21,709 nt of DNA, from positions 1 to 21,709 of IMG/VR virus record IMGVR_UViG_3300009002_000056. The stretch is one strand, 5' to 3'. The position numbers were made by a program, and so were the translations under genes. This DNA is from a virus. A model generated the notes under the pieces. The model saw only the letters and a program-made list of their open reading frames with translations. It was not told the DNA's origin and made no database searches. Every line of letters starts with the position of its first letter. The first letter of the stretch is position 1. Positions 2,828 through 20,914 of this stretch are shown here, in pieces.

Positions 2828-4188
2828 TGAAAAGACAATCGCAGTTTAAATATGAAAAGGCATTAATCACGAGTGAAAGATTACCGAACCTTGACATAGA
2901 CATACGTCCGTTAATAGTCGAACTTGTATTATATGAATCATTAGATAAACCATTTCTCACTGGTAGAATCGGTATAGCAGATGATCAAGGTATATTTGAT
3001 TCTACTAATTTCTCTGGAACCGAACGTCTACACATCCAAATGCAATCAGAGTTTGTATTGGAAGGATCTACTGATAATGTTGTAATGGATAGAGTATTCA
3101 TCATGACTGGTATTGAGGCAATAGAAAAATCCTCTAACAGTGGTAATTCTTCGATGGTTATTGTATCATTGATGGATGAACACGCATTTATCTCTAAGAC
3201 AAAAAATATATCTCGTTCCATCAAGAATGATCTCCAGAGAGAGATTGTAAAATTATGTCAGAACGAAGTCGGTAAGGATGTTGATCTATCTTATTCGGCA
3301 GGTACAGTACAAAGTAATTTCCGTGGAGTTATACCATACATGCATCCACTTGAGGCGGCATCGTGGTTGACCAGTAAAGCAACCACGGATGTTGGTGCAC
3401 CTTTCTTTCTATATGCATCTATGCACGACAACAATCTTAGGTTGGGTAGTTTAGATACAATGTTAGAACAACCTGCATGGAATGCTTCAATACCATATAC
3501 ATATTCACCATCTAATGTACAGATGCAAGAAGAGAATGGTACTCCAGATTTACAGTACTTTCAGATACAGAGTATGAAAGCAACAAAGATGCAAAATACC
3601 TTGACTCAGTTAATGTCTGGTGGTATCGGATCAAAATATACTATCACTGATATAAGTACTGGTCGTACAACAGCACAGCATTTTTCTATAGAAAAACTCT
3701 TGACACAAGCAGACGAAGCAGGTATAATAAACAAAGAGAAGCAAAACATATACAACCCATCTTATAAAACACCAGACTTCGAAGACGTTAATATCGAAGG
3801 TGCACATCTACATGATACAGATGCGTGTATATATCATAACGTAGTATCACGTGGTGTATATGGTGATAGTAAATCACTACATGATGAGGTAACAAGTGCT
3901 ATGTTCTTAAAGAAGATTCAAAGTGCATCCTACCGAAATATGATATTTAAAAACATGTATGACATTACAGTTCCTGGCCCAGGCTTTATTAAGTCGGGTG
4001 GATCCGTGGGTGATAAAATACGAATCAATGTTATCAGTGATGATTTGACAGGTAATCCAGATAATGGATTGGATCAACTTAGAAGTGGTGATTTTATTGT
4101 TTACAATACAAGACACCAGTTTGGTGGTACTGCACACAATGTGGCAATGACTGTTGCAAAACTTGAGAAGGGTTTGAGGGATGAATAA
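2827..4188 (+). CDS. Baseplate hub protein, gp27-like
   Basis: This 453-residue protein has the layout of gp27/VgrG/phage late-control D hub proteins. A first beta-barrel region (residues 20-125) reads as alternating strands (VELVLYESLDKPFLTGRIGI, then MDRVFIMTGIEAIEKS). A helical section with IVKLCQNEVG follows, then a central region with PYMHPLEAASWLTSKA (around 170-185) typical of hub proteins. The C-terminal barrel (around 375-450) reads NMYDITVPGPGF, GDKIRIN, then SGDFIVYNTRHQF and ends in LEKG. In T4 a gp27 trimer adapts six-fold wedge symmetry to the trimeric spike. It starts one base inside the gp53 stop and overlaps the OB-fold gp5-like gene by 8 bases, which fits a hub assembled with that partner. 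T4 gp27 is 391 residues. Confidence 0.82.
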   Translation: MKRQSQFKYEKALITSERLPNLDIDIRPLIVELVLYESLDKPFLTGRIGIADDQGIFDSTNFSGTERLHIQMQSEFVLEGSTDNVVMDRVFIMTGIEAIEKSSNSGNSSMVIVSLMDEHAFISKTKNISRSIKNDLQREIVKLCQNEVGKDVDLSYSAGTVQSNFRGVIPYMHPLEAASWLTSKATTDVGAPFFLYASMHDNNLRLGSLDTMLEQPAWNASIPYTYSPSNVQMQEENGTPDLQYFQIQSMKATKMQNTLTQLMSGGIGSKYTITDISTGRTTAQHFSIEKLLTQADEAGIINKEKQNIYNPSYKTPDFEDVNIEGAHLHDTDACIYHNVVSRGVYGDSKSLHDEVTSAMFLKKIQSASYRNMIFKNMYDITVPGPGFIKSGGSVGDKIRINVISDDLTGNPDNGLDQLRSGDFIVYNTRHQFGGTAHNVAMTVAKLEKGLRDE

Positions 4189-5050
4189 GTATTACGGTGA
4201 TAGTACACGATGGTTTGTGGCAGATGTTATTGATGCATCTCCACCCTATGGATATGAAGGTCGTGTGCGAATTAGGATACATGGTGTACATGATCCTGCC
4301 ACTCGATTTATTCCACAGAACGATCTTCCGTGGGCACAATGTCTTATTCCTACTACCGAAGGTGGTGTGTCTGGTTTAGGATTCTCTCCATCATTACAAG
4401 CAGGTGCATTAGTATTCGGCATGTTTATGGATGGTAAAGAATCACAAGTCCCTGTTATAATAGGATCTATGCCAAGGACAGAGTTCCCAACACCAGTTCA
4501 AAAATCATTAGCATATGACAATCTATTAGAAAGAACAACTGCTACCCAAGATTTCTACAATCAATCTATATCTGGGGTTGACGAAGATGACTCTGCCTTG
4601 TATAATGACCTTAGAGATGAAGAACCTACAGGAAAGACAACACTTTATAGAAGAGACGTTGCAATCAAGTTCTTCCTATCTAATGGATATACAATTAAAC
4701 AAGCATCCGCATTAGTCGGTGTCATCGAAACAGTCAATAGTAAGTTTGATACCACATTTGAGAATGAAGGTGGTATAGGTCTATGTGGTTGGTCTAACGT
4801 GAGATTTGCCAGACTAAAATCATTCAGTAACACATGGTGGCACTTCTCTACCCAATTATCGTTCATACTGTTTGAACTAAATAGTTCACATGTAGATGCA
4901 AACATTCGTATTCTTAATTCAGATGTTATTGATAAAAATAAAGGAAGAGCACTGGGTTCTATCATAGGAAGACACTATGCTCCAATTAAGAACGACTATG
5001 ATGCAGGTGCATTAAGACTGTTCGAACTATATTCGAATAAGAAGGTATAG
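4181..5050 (+). CDS. 5: Baseplate hub gp5-like protein: OB-fold plus lysozyme-like domain, probably inactive
   Basis: Residues 9-110 form the gp5/VgrG-type OB-fold: RWFVADVIDASPPYGYEGRV, IRIHGVHDP, then DLPWAQCLIPTTEGG, the GxxxSLQAGALVFGMFMDGKE core and PVIIGSMP. Residues about 160-285 resemble the phage tail lysozyme domain (Phage_lysozyme2 type): a helix ending FFLSNGYTIKQASALVGVIE, then GGIGLCGWSN (197-206) and STQLSFILFEL. In active members a catalytic Glu is expected in the A-E-S-G-F motif; here the aligned segment is VNSKFD (185-190) with Asn186, and the usual GIAQW-like motif reads GLCGW. Catalysis may therefore be lost, although Glu183 is near. The T4 gp5 C-terminal needle is absent: this protein ends at residue 289. 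AGAAGG precedes the ATG by about 9 bases. A one-base gap separates it from the amidase gene. Confidence 0.82.
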   Translation: MNKYYGDSTRWFVADVIDASPPYGYEGRVRIRIHGVHDPATRFIPQNDLPWAQCLIPTTEGGVSGLGFSPSLQAGALVFGMFMDGKESQVPVIIGSMPRTEFPTPVQKSLAYDNLLERTTATQDFYNQSISGVDEDDSALYNDLRDEEPTGKTTLYRRDVAIKFFLSNGYTIKQASALVGVIETVNSKFDTTFENEGGIGLCGWSNVRFARLKSFSNTWWHFSTQLSFILFELNSSHVDANIRILNSDVIDKNKGRALGSIIGRHYAPIKNDYDAGALRLFELYSNKKV

Positions 5051-5051
5051 G

Positions 5052-7031
5052 ATGTCATTAGATACACTTAATAGTAAATTAAAAGCAAACACCAAGTTAG
5101 ATTCTTACAAAGATGATATTACTACGTCTGTGGCAAAAGTAAAAGACGTACAGGTATTAAATAATAATACGGTACTTGGAACAGATGTCGGCACTACCGT
5201 AAATGGTATTAAAAGTTTAGATAATAACAAAGATAAAATTAAGCAATCCATAGCAGGAAGTAGTGCGGGTCAATTAGCACAAGTACTCCCTGGCGGTGGT
5301 GGTTTACCTAAAGCAGATGCAGATGCATTCAAGGTTGGTATATCCGCAGGTGTTGCTACAGTTACAAACGTGGCACAACAAATATCCACGTTATCTTTTG
5401 ATAGTGCAGGTGACACCATTGGAACGGAGTCTCTGGTTGCAGGGGCATCAATCCCCACCGTCTCTATGTCTGGAACCGATGTGGAATCTGCACTATCTTC
5501 TCTTACTGCTTCACTGACTGGTATTGTCCCACCCGTAGAACCAATCACTATTGTTGCCCTTGGTGGTGCAGTACTTGATGAACTTGTAGGTGCTGTAGAA
5601 ATATCTGCTGAAAGAAAAGGATCTCTATTAGGTTCGATCTCTGCCGTTGCAGGTGAAGCAACCGCACAGGCAGGTGGACTGGGTGCTGAACTCACAGCAA
5701 GTGTTGATGCTATGAAGGCAGATCTTGATAAAGCAATCGCAGATGTTAAGAGTGGATCTGCTATGACCGATATGGCAAATGCAGTATCCGCAGTAGAAGG
5801 TGTTGCAAATGATGCCGCTAATGCTGTAGCAGATGCTACAAATGCCGCCTCCAGTGCACTTGATGGTGCTGTAGCAGATGCAACAGGTGCACTAACAGCA
5901 GGACTACCCAAGGACAAATCACCATTGGGTGGTTTGCTCGACTCGGTTGCAGGTGCAGTTGGTGATCTTGTTGGTGCAGTAGGAGCAAAAATAAAAACTG
6001 GTCTCGGTACCGCACAGGATCTATTCGAAGATTTGACTGGTTCTGTTGGTAGTGCATTACAATCAGCACTGGGTGGATTTAACCTCGATAGTAGTTTCCT
6101 GTCTACCATACTTAAAGATGTGATGGAAGGTGGTGACATCAACCTAACAAAGGCGGCAAAGTCTATTGCATTGAAGAGTGAGAATACTTCCGCAGAAATG
6201 AAAGGTATTATCAGTAAAGCAGACGGTGAAACAATTAGTGAATTTAATAAAAATGTTAAAAACCTTGCTGAAGCAAATGGAATACCTCAAGCAGAAATAG
6301 ATGCCTTTGATAAAGAAATAGGTTCCATATCATCTGCATTAGATAAAGTCGATAGTACCATATCTGGATCTATCGTCTCAGAAGCAGGTGAATTCTACAC
6401 AGAAGATATTGCTCTGGCAGAACTTGCTAAAAGATATAGTGGAGCAGATACAACAGAATTCCCATATATCAATTCTAAAGAAGAACTTGGTTTGGAGTTT
6501 AAGACTAATGTTAGAGCAGTATCAGAGTTAATAATTCATGCAAGTGAATCATTTACAAATGCTAATATTGGTGCAGAAGAAATTAATATAAGACACAACG
6601 AAGCAGGTCATGACGGTATTCAGTATCATTTAATTATACGAAGAAACGGTACATTACAAAGAGGAGTGCCTCTGGACACTGTAAGTACTGCCAGTGACAT
6701 ATTAGGTCACAGTGCTAATTGTATTGACATATGTTTAGTTGGTGGTATTAACGTTGCATCCGAAGCACAAGATCCTTTGCTCAATTTATCATCTGGATCA
6801 TTCACACAATCACAGATGAAAACATTAGAAGCAATATGTCAGTCGTTCTATCATGTAGTTCCAGGCGGACAAGTACTTGGTCATAATGATATTGACGAAG
6901 CATCAAGAGATCCGTACATGGATATTAAATCTTATGTTGAAAACAAGTTCGGGAAGAAGTCAGTATATAAAGACACGTTGACCGAACAATCTAAATCACC
7001 AAGTGAATTGGTAAGTGCGAGTGCAGTATGA
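5052..7031 (+). CDS. Baseplate-associated Ala-rich protein with C-terminal N-acetylmuramoyl-L-alanine amidase domain
   Basis: The C-terminal 175 residues are an Amidase_2/T7-lysozyme/AmpD-type peptidoglycan amidase, which cuts between muramic acid and L-alanine. Visible landmarks are SELIIHASES (His496), IGAEEINIRHNEAGHDGIQY, YHLIIRRNGTLQRG (Tyr525), CIDICLVGGI, FTQSQMKTL and VLGHNDIDEASRDP (His611, Asp620). His496, His611 and Asp620 fit the three zinc ligands of AmpD; T7 lysozyme has Cys at the last site. The Lys two residues before the last ligand in T7 lysozyme is Ser618 here. Residues 1-440 are unlike any enzyme: low-complexity Ala/Gly/Ser/Val/Asp sequence, probably helical or extended. 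AAGAAGG lies 6 bases before the ATG. It lies between the gp5-like hub and the spike and overlaps the spike gene by 4 bases, so it is probably a virion enzyme used on infection rather than a free endolysin. Confidence 0.85.
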   Translation: MSLDTLNSKLKANTKLDSYKDDITTSVAKVKDVQVLNNNTVLGTDVGTTVNGIKSLDNNKDKIKQSIAGSSAGQLAQVLPGGGGLPKADADAFKVGISAGVATVTNVAQQISTLSFDSAGDTIGTESLVAGASIPTVSMSGTDVESALSSLTASLTGIVPPVEPITIVALGGAVLDELVGAVEISAERKGSLLGSISAVAGEATAQAGGLGAELTASVDAMKADLDKAIADVKSGSAMTDMANAVSAVEGVANDAANAVADATNAASSALDGAVADATGALTAGLPKDKSPLGGLLDSVAGAVGDLVGAVGAKIKTGLGTAQDLFEDLTGSVGSALQSALGGFNLDSSFLSTILKDVMEGGDINLTKAAKSIALKSENTSAEMKGIISKADGETISEFNKNVKNLAEANGIPQAEIDAFDKEIGSISSALDKVDSTISGSIVSEAGEFYTEDIALAELAKRYSGADTTEFPYINSKEELGLEFKTNVRAVSELIIHASESFTNANIGAEEINIRHNEAGHDGIQYHLIIRRNGTLQRGVPLDTVSTASDILGHSANCIDICLVGGINVASEAQDPLLNLSSGSFTQSQMKTLEAICQSFYHVVPGGQVLGHNDIDEASRDPYMDIKSYVENKFGKKSVYKDTLTEQSKSPSELVSASAV

Positions 7032-8464
7032 CAACTACAACTAAAAAACGTGACATAGGTACAGATCCTTCTATTGAAAACACAGAGGGAATACCACAGG
7101 ACGGGTTCCAAGATCCTACTGGTGAGTATCCTAAACAGGAATATCACTATGGATCCTCGATTCACAAATCTGCCCGTGGACTAAAGGTAGAGAACCTTTA
7201 TCTGGGTGGAGGATCTATAGGAACAGATTTAGATCTCGAAGATCAAGAACCATCTAAGTTCCCACATAACCAAGTAAAAGAAACAACCTCTGGTCATATC
7301 ATTTCATATGATGATACGCCTGGCGGAGAACGTATCCTACTCAAACACCGAACAGGTGCGGGTGTAGAAGTACGTGCGGATGGATCTGTTGTTATCAGTG
7401 CGGTCAACAATAAAGTAGAAGTTACTGGTGGTGACCAGACAGTAATAGTTGAAGGTAACGGAAAATTAGTGTATAATGGTAATCTGAACCTTGAGGTTAC
7501 AGGAGATTACAATGTAGATGTTGGGGGTGACTATAATGTCAACGTCAACGGAGATGTTAATAGTAACTACCGTAAGAGCAACACAACTAAGGTAGGTCTC
7601 AATACAAACTATACAACAAAAGGTTCTGCCGTATTTAAAACAGTTGAGCATGAAGCAAGAACTGTATTAGGTAACGAAGATCATGTCGTAAAGGGTTACT
7701 GGAAGAATAACATTGGTGCAGAGTGTGAGATCTTTACTGCCAATAGATTCCAAGTATCTGCCGAAGAAGAGTTTGCAATGTCTGCATTACAGGGCAACAT
7801 ATCTGCCACTGAGATATCAGTATTGGGTATGAAAGGTGCCATGGGTGGTGAACAGGTTGAGATGACCTCTCCAGTATACATGGGGCCGCAGGGTGCAGTA
7901 CCATTTACATCTGGTGCATCTTTCTATGGTTCATTCCATGGACAAGCACTCGAAGCAATCAAATCTAAGTATGCACATAAAGCAGAGAATGCTAAGACTT
8001 CAGAGAAGGCATCTAAAGAGTCGCCTGGGCAACCAAGTGGTGGTGCACCAGACGTACCTACAAATATGGAATCACTCACACCGTTGAAACCTGTACCCAT
8101 ATGTGATGCAGTTGCGGGTATACTATCCGAAGGTCACTTATCAATCAGACCAATCGTGATTGATCCAAAAGATGATCTACGTAACAAGTTGCTATTCAGA
8201 GATGACTACGCAGGATTATACGAGAAAGTTCCTACACTTGATGAGGTACGTTCTACAATGAGAGATCCTGCAAACAGAACAATCGCAAATGATGAGGGAA
8301 CCACAGTGGTAGATCTACTCGTGACAGATGGAATATTATCTGGTGAGTGGAAAGTTCCAACACCACCTAAGACTGGTCGTGTTGCACCTGCTACAACGTC
8401 ACCAAGATTTGGTTATAATGCATTGGGTAACTCAGTTGATAATAGAGGCAAAAGATTTAAATGA
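7028..8464 (+). CDS. Baseplate central spike protein with gp5C-type octapeptide repeats
   Basis: This 478-residue protein carries six consecutive eight-residue repeats at residues 130-177, beginning VEVTGGDQ, TVIVEGNG, KLVYNGNL, NLEVTGDY, NVDVGGDY and NVNVNGDV. Glycine falls at position 6 of nearly every unit, usually with Val two residues before it; this is the VxGxxxxx pattern of the T4 gp5 C-terminal triple-stranded beta-helix needle. Upstream, residues 95-128 (HIISYDDTPGGERILLKHRT, then GVEVRADGSVVIS) resemble the lead-in strands of VgrG/gp5 spikes. The later part includes a Gly/Ala/Pro-rich linker (around 325-345) and an Asp-rich region with KPVPICDAVAGIL; I do not recognise its fold. 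It starts at an ATGA overlap with the amidase gene and ends at another ATGA overlap. It is most likely the trimeric membrane-piercing needle, encoded separately from the OB-fold. Confidence 0.75.
   Translation: MTTTTKKRDIGTDPSIENTEGIPQDGFQDPTGEYPKQEYHYGSSIHKSARGLKVENLYLGGGSIGTDLDLEDQEPSKFPHNQVKETTSGHIISYDDTPGGERILLKHRTGAGVEVRADGSVVISAVNNKVEVTGGDQTVIVEGNGKLVYNGNLNLEVTGDYNVDVGGDYNVNVNGDVNSNYRKSNTTKVGLNTNYTTKGSAVFKTVEHEARTVLGNEDHVVKGYWKNNIGAECEIFTANRFQVSAEEEFAMSALQGNISATEISVLGMKGAMGGEQVEMTSPVYMGPQGAVPFTSGASFYGSFHGQALEAIKSKYAHKAENAKTSEKASKESPGQPSGGAPDVPTNMESLTPLKPVPICDAVAGILSEGHLSIRPIVIDPKDDLRNKLLFRDDYAGLYEKVPTLDEVRSTMRDPANRTIANDEGTTVVDLLVTDGILSGEWKVPTPPKTGRVAPATTSPRFGYNALGNSVDNRGKRFK
7415..7558 (+). 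repeat. Six octapeptide-encoding repeats (24-base periodicity) in the spike gene
   Basis: Six consecutive 24-base units encode eight-residue repeats with Gly at position 6 and usually Val at position 4. The period is strict at the protein level while the DNA units are divergent, so they are old repeats rather than recent duplications. The pattern corresponds to the VxGxxxxx repeats of T4 gp5C. Confidence 0.75.
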
Positions 8465-9066
8465 TTATTATACCAGACCAAAAGTACAATCCAAATTTTG
8501 CAGAAACAATTACTTCGGGCACTAAACTATCGCCTGGATGTTCAATTGCTAAGTTTCTTGGATCTAAAGGAAACCCATGTAGTTTATCTACTATAGGTAA
8601 ATACCAGAACGATCAAGACGCACGTAAGCAACTTTCTCGTAATCTATATCTACATGCAGAACTATTCCGAATGATCAATGGCAATCAAGATTTCTTCAAA
8701 GATGTTAGACTTGTAGTTGTAGAAGGTGTCTACAGGGGTGGGCCGTTGGAGACAGTTGCAGGTGATAACATTAAGAAACAAGATGGTCAAATGGTATCAT
8801 ATAGAATGATTGATGAGAATGGATCTGTTGATTTCGAAAGAACATTTGATCTCGCAGAATATTGGAAGGACTATGCTAATTTTGATAAGTTGATTTTAGA
8901 GTATGATAATTGGAATCCAGATGGATCATTAAATGCTCAAGTAACAATAGAGGTACCTACAGTACCAGAAACATTCGATATATCATATTCTAATAACGTA
9001 GAAACATTTTACAATGGTACACTTTTAAGTGCAAATGAGTTATTAGAAGTTGTAAATGATGTATAA
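8461..9066 (+). CDS. Protein of unknown function between spike and gp25
   Basis: This 201-residue protein is not one I recognise. It has no signal peptide, membrane segment or obvious catalytic motif. The N-terminal third contains two cysteines (SPGCSIAKF and GNPCSLSTI), the middle has a helix followed by a strand (NLYLHAELFRMINGN then DVRLVVVEGVYRGG), and the C-terminal 60 residues are acidic and strand-like (LILEYDNWNPDGS, VTIEVPTVPETFDI). It is joined to the spike gene by a 4-base ATGA overlap and its stop codon lies within the late promoter of gp25. A virion or baseplate-assembly role is inferred from this position only. Confidence 0.8.
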   Translation: MIIIPDQKYNPNFAETITSGTKLSPGCSIAKFLGSKGNPCSLSTIGKYQNDQDARKQLSRNLYLHAELFRMINGNQDFFKDVRLVVVEGVYRGGPLETVAGDNIKKQDGQMVSYRMIDENGSVDFERTFDLAEYWKDYANFDKLILEYDNWNPDGSLNAQVTIEVPTVPETFDISYSNNVETFYNGTLLSANELLEVVNDV

Positions 9067-14986: not shown

Positions 14987-17900
14987 ATGCCAAACACTTT
15001 TACAGAACAAACATTACGTTCAACATACAAAGATGATTATCACGATAGTGATAACTATCACCGTATTCTGTTTAATGCAGGTCGTGCGTTACAAGCACGT
15101 GAACTTACACAAATGCAGACTATTATTCAGTCTGAAATTACTCGTTTTGCTAATAATGTTTATGGCAAAGATGGTGTTGCGGTTGTTCAAGGTGGATTAT
15201 CGGTTAACGATGCTCATCCATACATTAAAATATCTAATGACCAAAACAACTCATTCACAAATGTAGCGGCACTTAAAGGTCAAATCCTAACTGGATCCGT
15301 AAGTTCAATAAAAGTACGAGTTCTGGAAGCAATAGCGGCAACTGGATCCGATCCAGACACAATCTATGTTCAGTACTTAGATAACCCAACAACAGTTGCC
15401 AGTACAACAGTACAAGAATCTACACCTACTGTAGTTTCTAACGAGATCCTAAGTAACGGATCTAACGTAAACCTTACTGTATCTAACATTTCTACTAATA
15501 TTGGATTTGGTTCTAAAGTAGAGGTTGGTGAATCTGAATTCTATGTTGGTGGTCACTTTGTATTCGTACCACATCAACAACTATTCATGAGCAAATACAC
15601 CACTGGTGAAACACTTGATATTGGTTTTAAAGTAGTTCAAGATATCGTAACAGTATCTGATACAGATGCCTTGTATGATAACCAAAATGCCACACCTAAC
15701 AGAGCATCGCCTGGTGCAGACAGACTGCGTATTCGTTTGGTACTTGCGTCTCGTGATGATGTTAATATTGGTGACACTTTTGTATTCTATGGACGAATCA
15801 TTGACGGTAAAGAATACATCTCTACTAAAACAGATTCTCAAAACTTTGACTATGTAAACAAACGTATCAAAGAAATTAACGGTGACTTCATTAAACAGTA
15901 CTGGAAACTACGTGTTCGTCCAGACGGTGAAAGTATTGCCAACAATTTTATACTTAATGTGGATCCAGGCGTAGCATACTTAGATGGTAAACGTATTGCT
16001 ACTAACATCCCACAACAAATTGTATTGCCTCGTGCTACTGATACTATCACAAGAGACGATGAGCAAGTAGGTATTACCTACGGAAACTATTACCACTTTG
16101 ATAGTGGTGTTGGTATGCTTAACATCGAAACAGCAGAGTCAGTAACTTTGCATACTGGATATGGTGGTACTGGTACCAATATAGGTACAGCAAACGTTCG
16201 TGCAATCACAGAAGGTAGCACACAAACACTTGCAGGTGGACAACAATATCAACGTGTTCCATCGTACAAAGCACATTTATTTAATGTTAAACTAACTAAT
16301 TTAGACTTTAGTTTGGCAGATGCATTGTCTGTTAAATCTTCAACAGATGCTCACTTGGTTAACCTTGTTCCTCGTATTGGAAACAAGGGTTCTTTACTGG
16401 TAGATCAAAGAGAAGATGCACTAATATTTGATACTCCGTTGCCTCGACCAAAAGGTTTCGCACAGGAGTTACCTGCTCGTCCCGCAACAATTACATTAAT
16501 GCAGAAGTTTAACTTTACTGCATCTGGAACGACTCACGAAATAACACTTGGTGATGCAGGTGAATCATTTGTAAACCAAACAGATATATTGATTGCACAG
16601 GGTGATGGAGCATCATCCTTTATGAAATCTGGTGTATCTACTGTTATCGGTGGTACGGGTAATAAGAAAATTACTTGTAGTGGACTAACAAGTGGTAAAT
16701 CATATGAGGTAATTGGACAGGTTAAGAAGACCAATTCTTCAGTAAAAACTAAAGCAATTACAGATGCTACTGTTACCGCACAACTGGATTCAGATGGATA
16801 TGGTATTCAATACATAGATCTCGGTAAATCAGATGTTTATAGTGTTGACCGTATACGTTCTGCTGATAGTAATGGTTATGATTTATTCCCATACTTTGTA
16901 TTCCAACCTAACAATGAACCGTCTCACCAAGGAGACTCTAAGTTGATATACACTGGTGGTGGTTTAACCAGTACGACTCAAAATGTATTTGTTAGAATGA
17001 AATATTTTGCTCCAAGTGCTAATGGAGAATTCTTTGCAGTCAACTCCTATGAAGGTCAGTTAGATTACTTAGACATTCCCGCACAATCACTTCCAGATGG
17101 AGGTAAAGTATCTTTAAGAGACGTTATCGATTTACGTCCTTCAACGAATGGTGCAGGGGCATTTACATCTGTACCTTCCTTGCCTATTCCATCTGATACT
17201 ATTACTGCGGATGCAGAATACTACTTACCACGTAATGACAAATTGGTTATATCCAAAAACAGTGAATTGCGATTGGTAAAAGGATCTTCTTCTTTAAATC
17301 CTAAGTTCCCAGAAGTTCCAGAAGATTGTATGGATCTATACAATATCCGTATGAATCCTAATACTCTTCATACTCAAGATATGAAATCAACACTGATTCC
17401 TCGCAAAGGTTATACTATGCAGGATATCAATAAGTTAGAAGAGAAGATCGATAAACTACAAGAGATGACTTCATTGTCATTACTTGAGTTGAATACTAAA
17501 ATCGGATCAGTTCTGGACTCAGCAGGTAATGACCGTGCTAAGTCTGGTTTCTTTGTAGATAACTTTGCTAACCATGCACATACGCATACACGTAGTAAAG
17601 AAGGTGCTAAGTCTGCAATCGATAAGGTTGCTAAGATGCTACGTCCACGTGCACCAGAAGAAGAGTCTTCATTATTCTATGACTCTGATGTAACTGGTAA
17701 TCTCCGTGTACAATTACATGGTGATATGATGATGCTTGATCATACGGAAGTACCGTATGACGCACAGGAACTTTCTTCAAGCACAGAAAACCTTCTACCA
17801 TTCCACGTACCATTTACTATTGGTAGATTAACAATTTCTCCAGAAACCGACACTTGGAAAGAAACCCAAAAGGTTGGTGAGAGTGTTGTAGGTAATTCAA

Positions 17901-20900
17901 CAGAGTTTGATTTACGTGAAGCACTTAACTGGAATAACTCGAATAACGCTTGGTTTGGGGTTGACCCTGCATCGTTGGATGTGGGTGAAACTGCCAAATC
18001 ATTTGTTTCGGGAACCTCAACCACAGTAGTTCAAAATACTCAAGACCCTGTACTCGTTGGTACATCAACCCAAGAAGAATTGGGAGAGTGGGTCAAGACA
18101 GGTACTGTTACTAATAATACCACTCTATCTACAGAAACTGTAGAAGTTAACAGAGAACGACAAGAAGAAGTATCCAGATCTGCTATCGATGCACAAGCAA
18201 CAAGAGTAAGTTGGGCAGCTGCCAATATTCTCGGTTCCAACTTCATTGGTGGTGGTAGCATATGGGCAGGTGGTAACTTTGGACTTGCAGGATCTGGTGG
18301 GGGAACTTTCCGAAACCAAGGTTGGAGAGGACTTGGAATACGAGTTGGTGAGAATGTAACTACTGATAACTGGGATACAGTTACAACAGAAACTCGTTCA
18401 AAGATTCGTAGTACAAATACATCAACATTCGAAACTACTAAGACTATTACTGAAGAGAATAGATTCGAACAAACTACAGAAACTACCACGACAACTTCAA
18501 CTTCCAATACGGTAAACCGTGTTGCAAGTGAATCAAGTATTCGTGATATCGTAGGTAAGAGAGTTATCGATGTATCAGTAATACCATTCATGCGTTCAGT
18601 AGAGATTAGATTCAAAGCAGAAGGATTGCGACCAAATACACAATACTTCCCATTCTTTGATAACACTAATGTGTCTCAGTTCTGTAGAACAGAATCATCA
18701 TTTAAGTTCTCTAACCGTAGACGTTGGTTAAACACTCGTTTGGGTGGTGGTATTAAAGACAACCACTTTATTTTTAAAACAAGTCAAGTCCATAACAAAG
18801 GAAAGACCAATCTCACATCTGATGCAGAGGGTACTGTAATAGGTTCGTTCGTTGTACCAAACAATGCTTCTATGAGATTCCATACTGGTAAACGTGAGTT
18901 TATGCTAATTGATGTCAACACTGCTAATGAAGATGGTGCGATGTCATTTGCTAAGACTCTGTTCCAATCAGCAGGTACTCTTGAGAAATTCGAACATAAC
19001 ATCCATGTAACTCGTACATTAAAGATAACTGGTACTTCGGATGTGTCTGTAGAGCAAAACACTACAGCAGATAGTACTGTATGGACAGATACTGTTGTAA
19101 CAACCGAACCTGCTACAGACATTAAGTCAAGCAGTACGGTAACAGCAGTTACAGGTAATAGGGAAACAACACGAGAGAATGAATCAACAACTACTGAATT
19201 TGTTCCTCGTCCACGTATTACACCTGTTCCACCTGCTACTACACCAACTGTACCACCAGCGGCAACAAGACCCACTACTCCAGTAGTTACTCGTATTCCA
19301 GTACAAGAGAGAAGAGGTCGAGGACGTAGACGTGGACGTAGATTTAGAGATCCAATTGCTCAGACTTTCCAAGTATTAGAGGCAGGTGGATTGTTTATAA
19401 CATCTATGGAAGTTTACTTTGCTACTAAGTCAAGTACTGCTCCAGTATTCTGTGAGTTAAGACCCACAGTAAATGGTGTACCACACTCAGACGTTATTTT
19501 AGCAAGTAAAAAGTTATCTCCCGCACAGGTTACTACAGTAACTACTGGGTCTAATAACAAAGCAATGTTGGCACAGTCAACTAAGTTTACTTTTGACACA
19601 CCAGTATTCTGTCCTGTCGGAGACTATGCATTAGTATTAGTTCCTGGCGATAACTCTCCAGACTACAATGCATATGCCGCTAAAGTAGGTGAGTTCCAAT
19701 TAGGATCTCAAGAAGCACGTGTAACACAACAGGCAACATTGGGTGCATTCTTTAAGTCTCAGAATGGTAAGACTTGGGAAGCGGCATCTGGATCTGACTT
19801 AACATATAAAGTCAACGTTGCTAACTTTGTTTCTTCGGGTAATATCATTCTTCAGAATGCTAACGTAGATCCAGAAGCACTAAGTAGAGATCCATTAGTC
19901 GTAGACTCTGGTTCTAACACTGTAAGGGTAGCATTTGCTAATCACGGTCTGCGTACTGGTGATAGGACAATCATTCGTGGTATTGACTCGGCAACAAGTT
20001 TCGGAAACGGACTGACAGGTGCTAACGTTAATGGTCTAAGAACTGTTGTTGCTTACGATAACTCTGGATACACATATACCGCTGGTGCTTCGGCAACCTC
20101 TCGTATGTGGTTTGGTGGTTCATCTGTAACATCATCACAAAACTTAAACTTTGAAGTATTACGTCCAAGTATTGATATTACACAACCTTCTCAGACTAAC
20201 GTAACATTGTCTATGAAGACTACTTCACAGCAATCACTTGCAGGTGATCAGACAAGATTTAGTAAAGAACCTAAGTTCCAGATAGTTGAGAACGAAAAGA
20301 ACATTTACTATAGTACACCACGTGCAGTCTATAATAGATCAACAGAGAATCTTTCTACCGCAGGTAAATTGAATGGTGCAAGATCTCTTGAGATGCAGGT
20401 AACATTAAAATCTACTTCACCGTTCTTGTCACCTATTGTTGACCTCGAACGTGCTAAAGTGATGACAATGCATAACTTGATTTCAAAGCAAGACTCCTCT
20501 GCCACACAAGGGTTCAATGTACCATTAACGTACATTAGTGAAACTCACCCGATGTTCGGTAGTGAATCTGCGAAGCATGTAACTAAGATAACTACACTGA
20601 CGGAAGAAGCAGTTGGTCTAAAAATATTAGTCGCTGCTAACCGTCCACCAGAATCAGACTTCCAAGTATATTGGAGATGTGGTGATGCAGGTGTCAATCT
20701 TGAACAGAACTTGTGGACACTGGTAAATCCAGATAACACTCTACCACCAGATACTAACAAAAACACTTTCCGTGAGTATCGATACTTGGTAGGTGGTGAA
20801 GGTGGTGCATTACCCCCATTCACTAAGTTCCAAACTAAGATAGTTATGCGTAGTACTAACTCGGCACAAGTACCAACGTTCCGTGACTTACGAGTAATAG

Positions 20901-20914
20901 CATTGGCAGTGTAA
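14987..20914 (+). CDS. Very large baseplate/tail-fibre-network structural protein (DUF4815-type N-terminus)
   Basis: This 1975-residue protein is of a kind found in cyanophage and other marine T4-like virions. The N-terminus (FTEQTLRSTYKDDYHDSDNY, then HRILFNAGRALQARELTQMQ) matches the DUF4815 family. Further segments in order: strand-rich body to about 800; a predicted coiled coil around 811-840 (INKLEEKIDKLQEMTSL); an HAHTH motif at His863, His865 and His867; a Gly-rich stretch around 1086-1118; a Thr/Glu-rich stretch around 1125-1180; VIPFMRSVEIRFKAEGLRPN (around 1197), a recurrent cyanophage structural motif; a Pro/Thr linker from about 1405 ending in an Arg-rich patch (1442-1454); then DPIAQTFQVLEAGGLFITSM and PVFCELRPTVNGVP, also typical of marine virion proteins. 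No catalytic domain is seen. It probably forms the outer baseplate and fibre attachment, a role partly held by gp7, gp10 and gp11 in T4. AGGAA at 14982-14986 directly precedes the ATG and a second copy overlaps the previous stop. Confidence 0.88.
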   Translation: MPNTFTEQTLRSTYKDDYHDSDNYHRILFNAGRALQARELTQMQTIIQSEITRFANNVYGKDGVAVVQGGLSVNDAHPYIKISNDQNNSFTNVAALKGQILTGSVSSIKVRVLEAIAATGSDPDTIYVQYLDNPTTVASTTVQESTPTVVSNEILSNGSNVNLTVSNISTNIGFGSKVEVGESEFYVGGHFVFVPHQQLFMSKYTTGETLDIGFKVVQDIVTVSDTDALYDNQNATPNRASPGADRLRIRLVLASRDDVNIGDTFVFYGRIIDGKEYISTKTDSQNFDYVNKRIKEINGDFIKQYWKLRVRPDGESIANNFILNVDPGVAYLDGKRIATNIPQQIVLPRATDTITRDDEQVGITYGNYYHFDSGVGMLNIETAESVTLHTGYGGTGTNIGTANVRAITEGSTQTLAGGQQYQRVPSYKAHLFNVKLTNLDFSLADALSVKSSTDAHLVNLVPRIGNKGSLLVDQREDALIFDTPLPRPKGFAQELPARPATITLMQKFNFTASGTTHEITLGDAGESFVNQTDILIAQGDGASSFMKSGVSTVIGGTGNKKITCSGLTSGKSYEVIGQVKKTNSSVKTKAITDATVTAQLDSDGYGIQYIDLGKSDVYSVDRIRSADSNGYDLFPYFVFQPNNEPSHQGDSKLIYTGGGLTSTTQNVFVRMKYFAPSANGEFFAVNSYEGQLDYLDIPAQSLPDGGKVSLRDVIDLRPSTNGAGAFTSVPSLPIPSDTITADAEYYLPRNDKLVISKNSELRLVKGSSSLNPKFPEVPEDCMDLYNIRMNPNTLHTQDMKSTLIPRKGYTMQDINKLEEKIDKLQEMTSLSLLELNTKIGSVLDSAGNDRAKSGFFVDNFANHAHTHTRSKEGAKSAIDKVAKMLRPRAPEEESSLFYDSDVTGNLRVQLHGDMMMLDHTEVPYDAQELSSSTENLLPFHVPFTIGRLTISPETDTWKETQKVGESVVGNSTEFDLREALNWNNSNNAWFGVDPASLDVGETAKSFVSGTSTTVVQNTQDPVLVGTSTQEELGEWVKTGTVTNNTTLSTETVEVNRERQEEVSRSAIDAQATRVSWAAANILGSNFIGGGSIWAGGNFGLAGSGGGTFRNQGWRGLGIRVGENVTTDNWDTVTTETRSKIRSTNTSTFETTKTITEENRFEQTTETTTTTSTSNTVNRVASESSIRDIVGKRVIDVSVIPFMRSVEIRFKAEGLRPNTQYFPFFDNTNVSQFCRTESSFKFSNRRRWLNTRLGGGIKDNHFIFKTSQVHNKGKTNLTSDAEGTVIGSFVVPNNASMRFHTGKREFMLIDVNTANEDGAMSFAKTLFQSAGTLEKFEHNIHVTRTLKITGTSDVSVEQNTTADSTVWTDTVVTTEPATDIKSSSTVTAVTGNRETTRENESTTTEFVPRPRITPVPPATTPTVPPAATRPTTPVVTRIPVQERRGRGRRRGRRFRDPIAQTFQVLEAGGLFITSMEVYFATKSSTAPVFCELRPTVNGVPHSDVILASKKLSPAQVTTVTTGSNNKAMLAQSTKFTFDTPVFCPVGDYALVLVPGDNSPDYNAYAAKVGEFQLGSQEARVTQQATLGAFFKSQNGKTWEAASGSDLTYKVNVANFVSSGNIILQNANVDPEALSRDPLVVDSGSNTVRVAFANHGLRTGDRTIIRGIDSATSFGNGLTGANVNGLRTVVAYDNSGYTYTAGASATSRMWFGGSSVTSSQNLNFEVLRPSIDITQPSQTNVTLSMKTTSQQSLAGDQTRFSKEPKFQIVENEKNIYYSTPRAVYNRSTENLSTAGKLNGARSLEMQVTLKSTSPFLSPIVDLERAKVMTMHNLISKQDSSATQGFNVPLTYISETHPMFGSESAKHVTKITTLTEEAVGLKILVAANRPPESDFQVYWRCGDAGVNLEQNLWTLVNPDNTLPPDTNKNTFREYRYLVGGEGGALPPFTKFQTKIVMRSTNSAQVPTFRDLRVIALAV

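Follow-up and report, generated by a model that had tools for sequence, protein, structure and literature searches.

Separately encoded OB-fold, amidase and spike proteins at the predicted tail hub of an uncultured marine group of T4-type phages

The DNA analyzed here, hereafter referred to as the window, comprises positions 1 to 21,709 of IMG/VR record IMGVR_UViG_3300009002_000056, a 21.7-kb viral record. It contains three consecutive open reading frames (ORFs) on the + strand that encode an OB-fold protein, a protein with an amidase domain, and a beta-helical spike (Table 1). The OB and amidase genes are separated by a single base and the amidase and spike genes overlap by 4 bases, and a recheck found the ORF coordinates, the gap and the overlap of the original prediction to be exact in every case. 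The three-gene operon is flanked by gp53-/gp27-like and by gp25-/gp6-like baseplate genes. The gene at the gp27 position shares its last 8 bases with the OB gene, which it directly precedes in relatives as well. Just 5' of junction 1, a purine-rich AAGAAGG, read by eye, resembles a ribosome-binding site, while the ATGA overlap at junction 2 is likely to couple translation of the amidase and spike genes; a 4-base overlap at this point is present in most of 64 triplets.

Table 1. Positions of the genes, domains and residues discussed, numbered in the window.
Feature	Position	Strand	Evidence or remark
gp53-like protein, 355 aa	1760-2827		
gp27-position hub/tail protein, 453 aa	2827-4188	+	phrog_350 tail protein, E=1.2e-37
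Hub protein with OB fold and C-terminal lysozyme-like domain, 289 aa	4181-5050	+	PF06714, PF18013
OB-fold domain, residues 1-107	4181-4501	+	Most conserved part of the OB protein in alignments
phi29-gp13-type lysozyme-like domain, residues 158-239	4652-4897	+	PF18013; catalytic Glu replaced, Val in the window
Junction 1: stop TAG, 1 base, ATG	5048-5054	+	
Putative amidase subunit, 659 aa	5052-7031	+	PF01510, phrog_822 amidase, T7 lysozyme match
Predicted helical domain before the amidase, residues 350-433	6099-6350	+	AF2 pLDDT about 70-89 over most of it; conserved C-terminal part length
Zinc amidase domain	6510-6950	+	AF2 pLDDT mostly about 90
Predicted metal ligand H496	6537-6539	+	
Predicted catalytic Y525	6624-6626	+	
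Predicted metal ligand H611	6882-6884	+	
Predicted metal ligand D620	6909-6911	+	
Junction 2: ATGA overlap, amidase stop / spike start	7028-7031	+	
Spike protein, 478 aa	7028-8464	+	T4 gp5 match, E=2.4e-14; phrog_430 baseplate hub, E=8.9e-32
gp5 linker motif PQDGFQDPTGEYPKQEYHY, spike residues 23-41 = T4 gp5 110-128	7094-7150	+	
Beta-helix with octapeptide repeats, residues ~75-300	7250-7927	+	C-terminal limit approximate
Conserved 201-aa protein directly 3' of the spike gene	8461-9066	+	Same place in relatives

Several neighboring genes were also inspected. Neither a PHROGs family nor a significant Pfam match was found for the 201-aa protein, and in the gp53-like protein the Pfam gp53 match covers residues 23-79 only, the remainder being an unexplained extension. 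Further downstream, positions 14987-20914 encode a 1975-aa protein that matches phrog_358, a family of unknown function (E=1.7e-286). Its gene sits about where phage HTVC008M has a VrlC-annotated gene.

Pfam analysis of the first of the three products detected an OB domain (PF06714, E=3e-6) followed by a Phage_lysozyme2 domain (PF18013, E=7.9e-9, 36.3 bits against a curated cut-off of 28.2). A family profile of the OB protein matched residues 5-99 of T4 gp5 (E=2.8e-10), and an N-terminal OB fold adjoining a gp27-like hub gene, as in T4 gp5, is found here. Glu45 has been suggested as the catalytic residue of phi29 gp13 (PMC10394673). The corresponding column holds Val in the window and Glu in just 1 of 54 family members (L056), a count that assumes an alignment register that is uncertain in the catalytic helix, and four relatives carry a Glu one position off this column. 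Based on these alignments, the lysozyme-like domain of the hub looks like an inactive remnant, and the loss of activity may not be universal, given the Glu retained in L056 and the neighboring Glu in the other four. The OB fold and the remnant-like appearance of the adjoining domain thus agree with the original prediction. The further idea that the remnant derives from the GH24 lysozyme of T4 gp5 does not hold, as the domain is of the phi29 gp13 type and none of the three proteins matched PF00959, the Pfam family of the T4 gp5 lysozyme. A splitting-off of the enzyme of gp5 itself is likewise unsupported, since both the PF18013 domain and the amidase lack a match to GH24.

The third product matches the beta-helix of T4 gp5, and the register of glycines in its octads was equalled in only 1 of 500 shuffles, confirming the separate octapeptide-repeat spike that had been proposed. 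Residues 110-128 of T4 gp5, including GFSDPTGQYPRR, align with spike residues 23-41, and T4 residues 385 onward align with the spike from residue 76 onward. The N-terminus of the spike carries the linker that joins OB fold and lysozyme in gp5, here DPTGEYP; among distant spikes, DPTGE is invariant and DPTGEYP nearly so. In the spike, the equivalent of T4 residues 110-128 thus leads directly to that of residue 385, and in the single-chain gp5 of HTVC008M a similar motif stands between OB fold and beta-helix, so that the gene break falls between the OB fold and the linker. Maturation cleavage of T4 gp5 occurs in the linker between lysozyme and beta-helix, at Ser351/Ala352 (PMC3004832). The suggestion that separate genes may replace this cleavage is therefore unsupported in its simple form, given that the spike begins upstream of the equivalent of T4 110-128, whereas the T4 cut lies after the lysozyme. 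Functionally, cleavage in T4 and separate genes both yield non-covalent parts.

Residues 489-621 of the middle protein match Amidase_2 (PF01510, E=1.4e-6, 29.1 bits against a curated cut-off of 26), and the amidase domain also matches T7 lysozyme (E=1e-11). An alignment of 43 sequences and the lengths of the parts divide the protein into a variable, Ala-rich, helical N-terminus, ranging from 172 to 602 aa across relatives, and a conserved C-terminus of ~310 aa. Residues 1-480 contain 14.8% Ala in the window, consistent with the earlier description of a separate Ala-rich amidase protein. The three predicted metal ligands and the predicted catalytic tyrosine are invariant in all 64 of 64 amidase sequences and in the 43-sequence alignment. 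At the position of Cys130 of T7 lysozyme the amidase has Asp, and at that of Lys128 it has Ser in the window and variable residues in relatives, so that amidase activity is not certain. An AF2 model built from the 43 sequences had a mean pLDDT of 68.6, with values of about 80-89 over residues 360-430 and a weak N-terminus; with 10 sequences only, the model was poor. AF2 is weak over the first 349 residues, and profile comparison gave no support for homology of this N-terminal part either to the helical middle region of gp5 from cyanophages or Xanthomonas phage X1 or to the M15 protein of phage phiM12. An antisense ORF of 290 aa (window 5270-6142, minus strand) lies opposite the Ala-rich stretch of the amidase gene and is probably a by-product of composition. 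The residue patterns of both proteins together are most simply read as a shift of the hub's enzyme activity from the OB chain to the amidase, provided that the alignment register holds.

To survey relatives for the three-gene order, we searched viral contigs three times with proteins or profiles and once with a deep amidase alignment, retaining the best 80 matches of each; still more distant arrangements may lie beyond these. Among the matches listed, OB, amidase and spike were separate genes in 192 of 226 loci, and the other 34 were cut by contig ends or had broken ORFs. These matches include 88 distinct triplets, falling at 90% identity into 46, 53 and 38 clusters for OB, amidase and spike, respectively, although many loci come from shared contigs and a contig end truncates some of these triplets (64 of an earlier set are complete). 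A more distant spike search added at least 76 further loci, of which 60 of the 76 listed have all three genes and 16 lack an OB match. Of the 16, most run off a contig end, and three (L242, L244 and L246) belong to a sister clade with an extra gene, their OB gene having been missed by the profile or lying outside the stretch. The gene order is still kept where the three proteins are about 31-48% identical.

Given how nearly contiguous the three ORFs are, they might represent a single gp5 gene broken by a sequencing error, or one whose parts are joined by frameshifting or readthrough. This explanation is hardly credible: the same break points recur in the 88 distinct triplets at the identities given above, there is no fused ORF in 302 loci and no ORF matching two profiles in the 226-locus set, each ORF has its own start, and no slippery heptamer precedes either stop codon. 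Moreover, some relatives have OB and amidase in one frame, still separated by a stop. We accordingly reject a frameshift or assembly artefact, which had been named among the findings that would refute the original prediction. Judging from the sequences, the three-gene arrangement is a conserved variant in a large uncultured group of marine T4-type phages.

Some relatives carry an additional gene within the array. In the sister clade (L159:9897-10820; L238, L240, L245, L248, L250, L253, L255 and L258), a gene for 281-469 aa lies between OB and amidase, and the spike is longer, at about 770-900 aa. In L159, L242 and L250, the three loci for which the extra protein was compared with PHROGs, it fell into no family. 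As far as we could see, the extra protein is not a cut-off amidase N-terminus, as it did not match the amidase profile either. At two other loci (L073:8259-8963 and L307:4804-5511), an extra gene of ~235 aa lies between amidase and spike, and the L307 protein has a weak QueC-like match (E=0.003).

The catalytic domain of the middle protein is closest to the lysis amidases of the T7 type, raising the question of whether this gene encodes an endolysin that sits in the baseplate operon by chance and acts outside the virion. In eight long relatives (72-144 kb, possibly incomplete), there is one Amidase_2 match each, in open frames of 503-844 aa, and seven of the eight encode a small enzyme elsewhere, comprising five GH24 proteins of 153-164 aa and two M15 proteins of 167 aa. 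The presence of a separate small endolysin candidate in these phages implies that the amidase is probably a tail lysin and would be carried in the virion. An endolysin role is further disfavored by the build of the protein, whose 659 aa and long helical N-terminus do not resemble a T7-type endolysin, and by the strict placement of its gene between the two gp5 parts in every complete locus; we regard this role as unlikely. It is also rather unlikely that the middle protein acts as a scaffold, controls length or is injected, with the amidase domain as a secondary module. The Ala-rich, helical N-terminal part of variable length would suit such a protein, and the middle protein has a profile similarity to a solved tape-measure protein, albeit a weak one (E=0.0043) of the kind that helical low-complexity sequence easily gives. 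The catalytic residues, however, are its most conserved feature, and a freely varying N-terminus is better suited to a tether than to a length ruler.

Comparison with known systems places the arrangement among several variants of gp5. The marine hub shares with T4 gp5 the N-terminal OB fold, the linker (DPTGQYP in T4), the octapeptide beta-helix and the gp27 neighbor. T4 gp5, in contrast, is one chain with an active GH24 lysozyme and a single cut at Ser351/Ala352, whereas the marine hub has three genes, a phi29-type lysozyme-like domain without the Glu, an amidase in trans and a break before the linker. In HTVC008M, gp5 is a single chain in which the OB fold is followed by a linker-like DPNGTYP and the beta-helix. 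No isolate of the marine clade turned up among the phage records searched; the nearest by gp6, C48C1 (38% identity), has a short hub protein encoded by a single gene. A split gp5 has been reported for Agrobacterium phage Atu_ph04, Sinorhizobium phage phiM9 and Rhizobium phage vB_RleM_P10VF (PMC6630229), and as in this phiM9 group, the OB and spike parts of the marine hub are in separate genes. The rhizobial phages OLIVR5 and ORM_20 differ in having, by a by-eye reading, a muramidase-like segment within the spike chain, a terminase rather than gp27 as neighbor of the spike gene, and no separate amidase gene that we could see.

Parallels were also found in three further phages. Methylophilales phage Melnitz EXVC044M is split near the same point, with OB plus an enzyme domain in one gene and linker (DPNNFYP) plus beta-helix in another. 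It has only two genes and no middle gene, and its enzyme domains are of the VanY/M15 peptidase type (L168:16364-19407): a VanY-like domain is fused to OB, and the spike ends in an M15-like one. Neither gp5 nor an OB domain comes up in the main text of the paper on this phage. Rhizobium phage RHph_I1_18 likewise has OB and Phage_lysozyme2 in one gene and the spike in another, but retains the lysozyme Glu, encodes a 116-aa protein between the two, and has an M15-like domain on the spike and no amidase. Sinorhizobium phage phiM12 resembles the marine phages in that gp5 is followed by a separate protein that begins with helical-looking sequence and ends in a wall enzyme, but its gp5 is intact, with both OB and beta-helix, and the enzyme is an M15 peptidase with no relation to the marine amidase detectable by profile comparison. 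Split gp5 proteins are therefore already known from rhizobial phages, with similar cases in Melnitz and RHph_I1_18. What appears to be new is the combination, in an uncultured marine clade, of an inactive-looking hub lysozyme with a conserved amidase encoded in trans, and the open-access literature searched yielded no description of the amidase arrangement.

Based on the data presented above, we propose that the central hub of this T4-type contractile tail is a gp5 assembled from separately made parts, with the amidase as tail lysin, and assign this reading a probability of roughly 0.7. The OB-fold protein would lie under the gp27-like ring, its lysozyme-like domain, lacking the catalytic Glu, probably having a structural or wall-binding role. 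The needle would be a separate beta-helix trimer, whose N-terminal segment (residues ~17-62, with the DPTGEYP linker) may dock onto the OB domains in place of a covalent link. The middle protein would be anchored to hub or needle by its helical N-terminus, and its zinc amidase would cut the MurNAc-L-Ala bond as the needle enters the periplasm. From the original idea of a modular hub, this proposal keeps the separate OB and spike homologues of gp5, the independent wall enzyme and the conservation of the arrangement, and drops the splitting-off of a GH24 enzyme and the replacement of cleavage. With somewhat better than even confidence, we further suggest that a widespread uncultured marine T4-type lineage has turned gp5 into a non-covalent three-part hub, with a dead lysozyme, a zinc amidase subunit and DPTGEYP holding the spike to the OB ring in trans.

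If this proposal is correct, a T4-type puncturing device can change its wall chemistry, from glycosidase to amidase, by swapping a subunit rather than a domain. A three-part hub would also allow a direct test of whether the spike linker holds the OB ring without a peptide bond. Finally, the domain that annotations of marine phages call 'gp5 lysozyme' may be inactive, the active enzyme being the product of the next gene.
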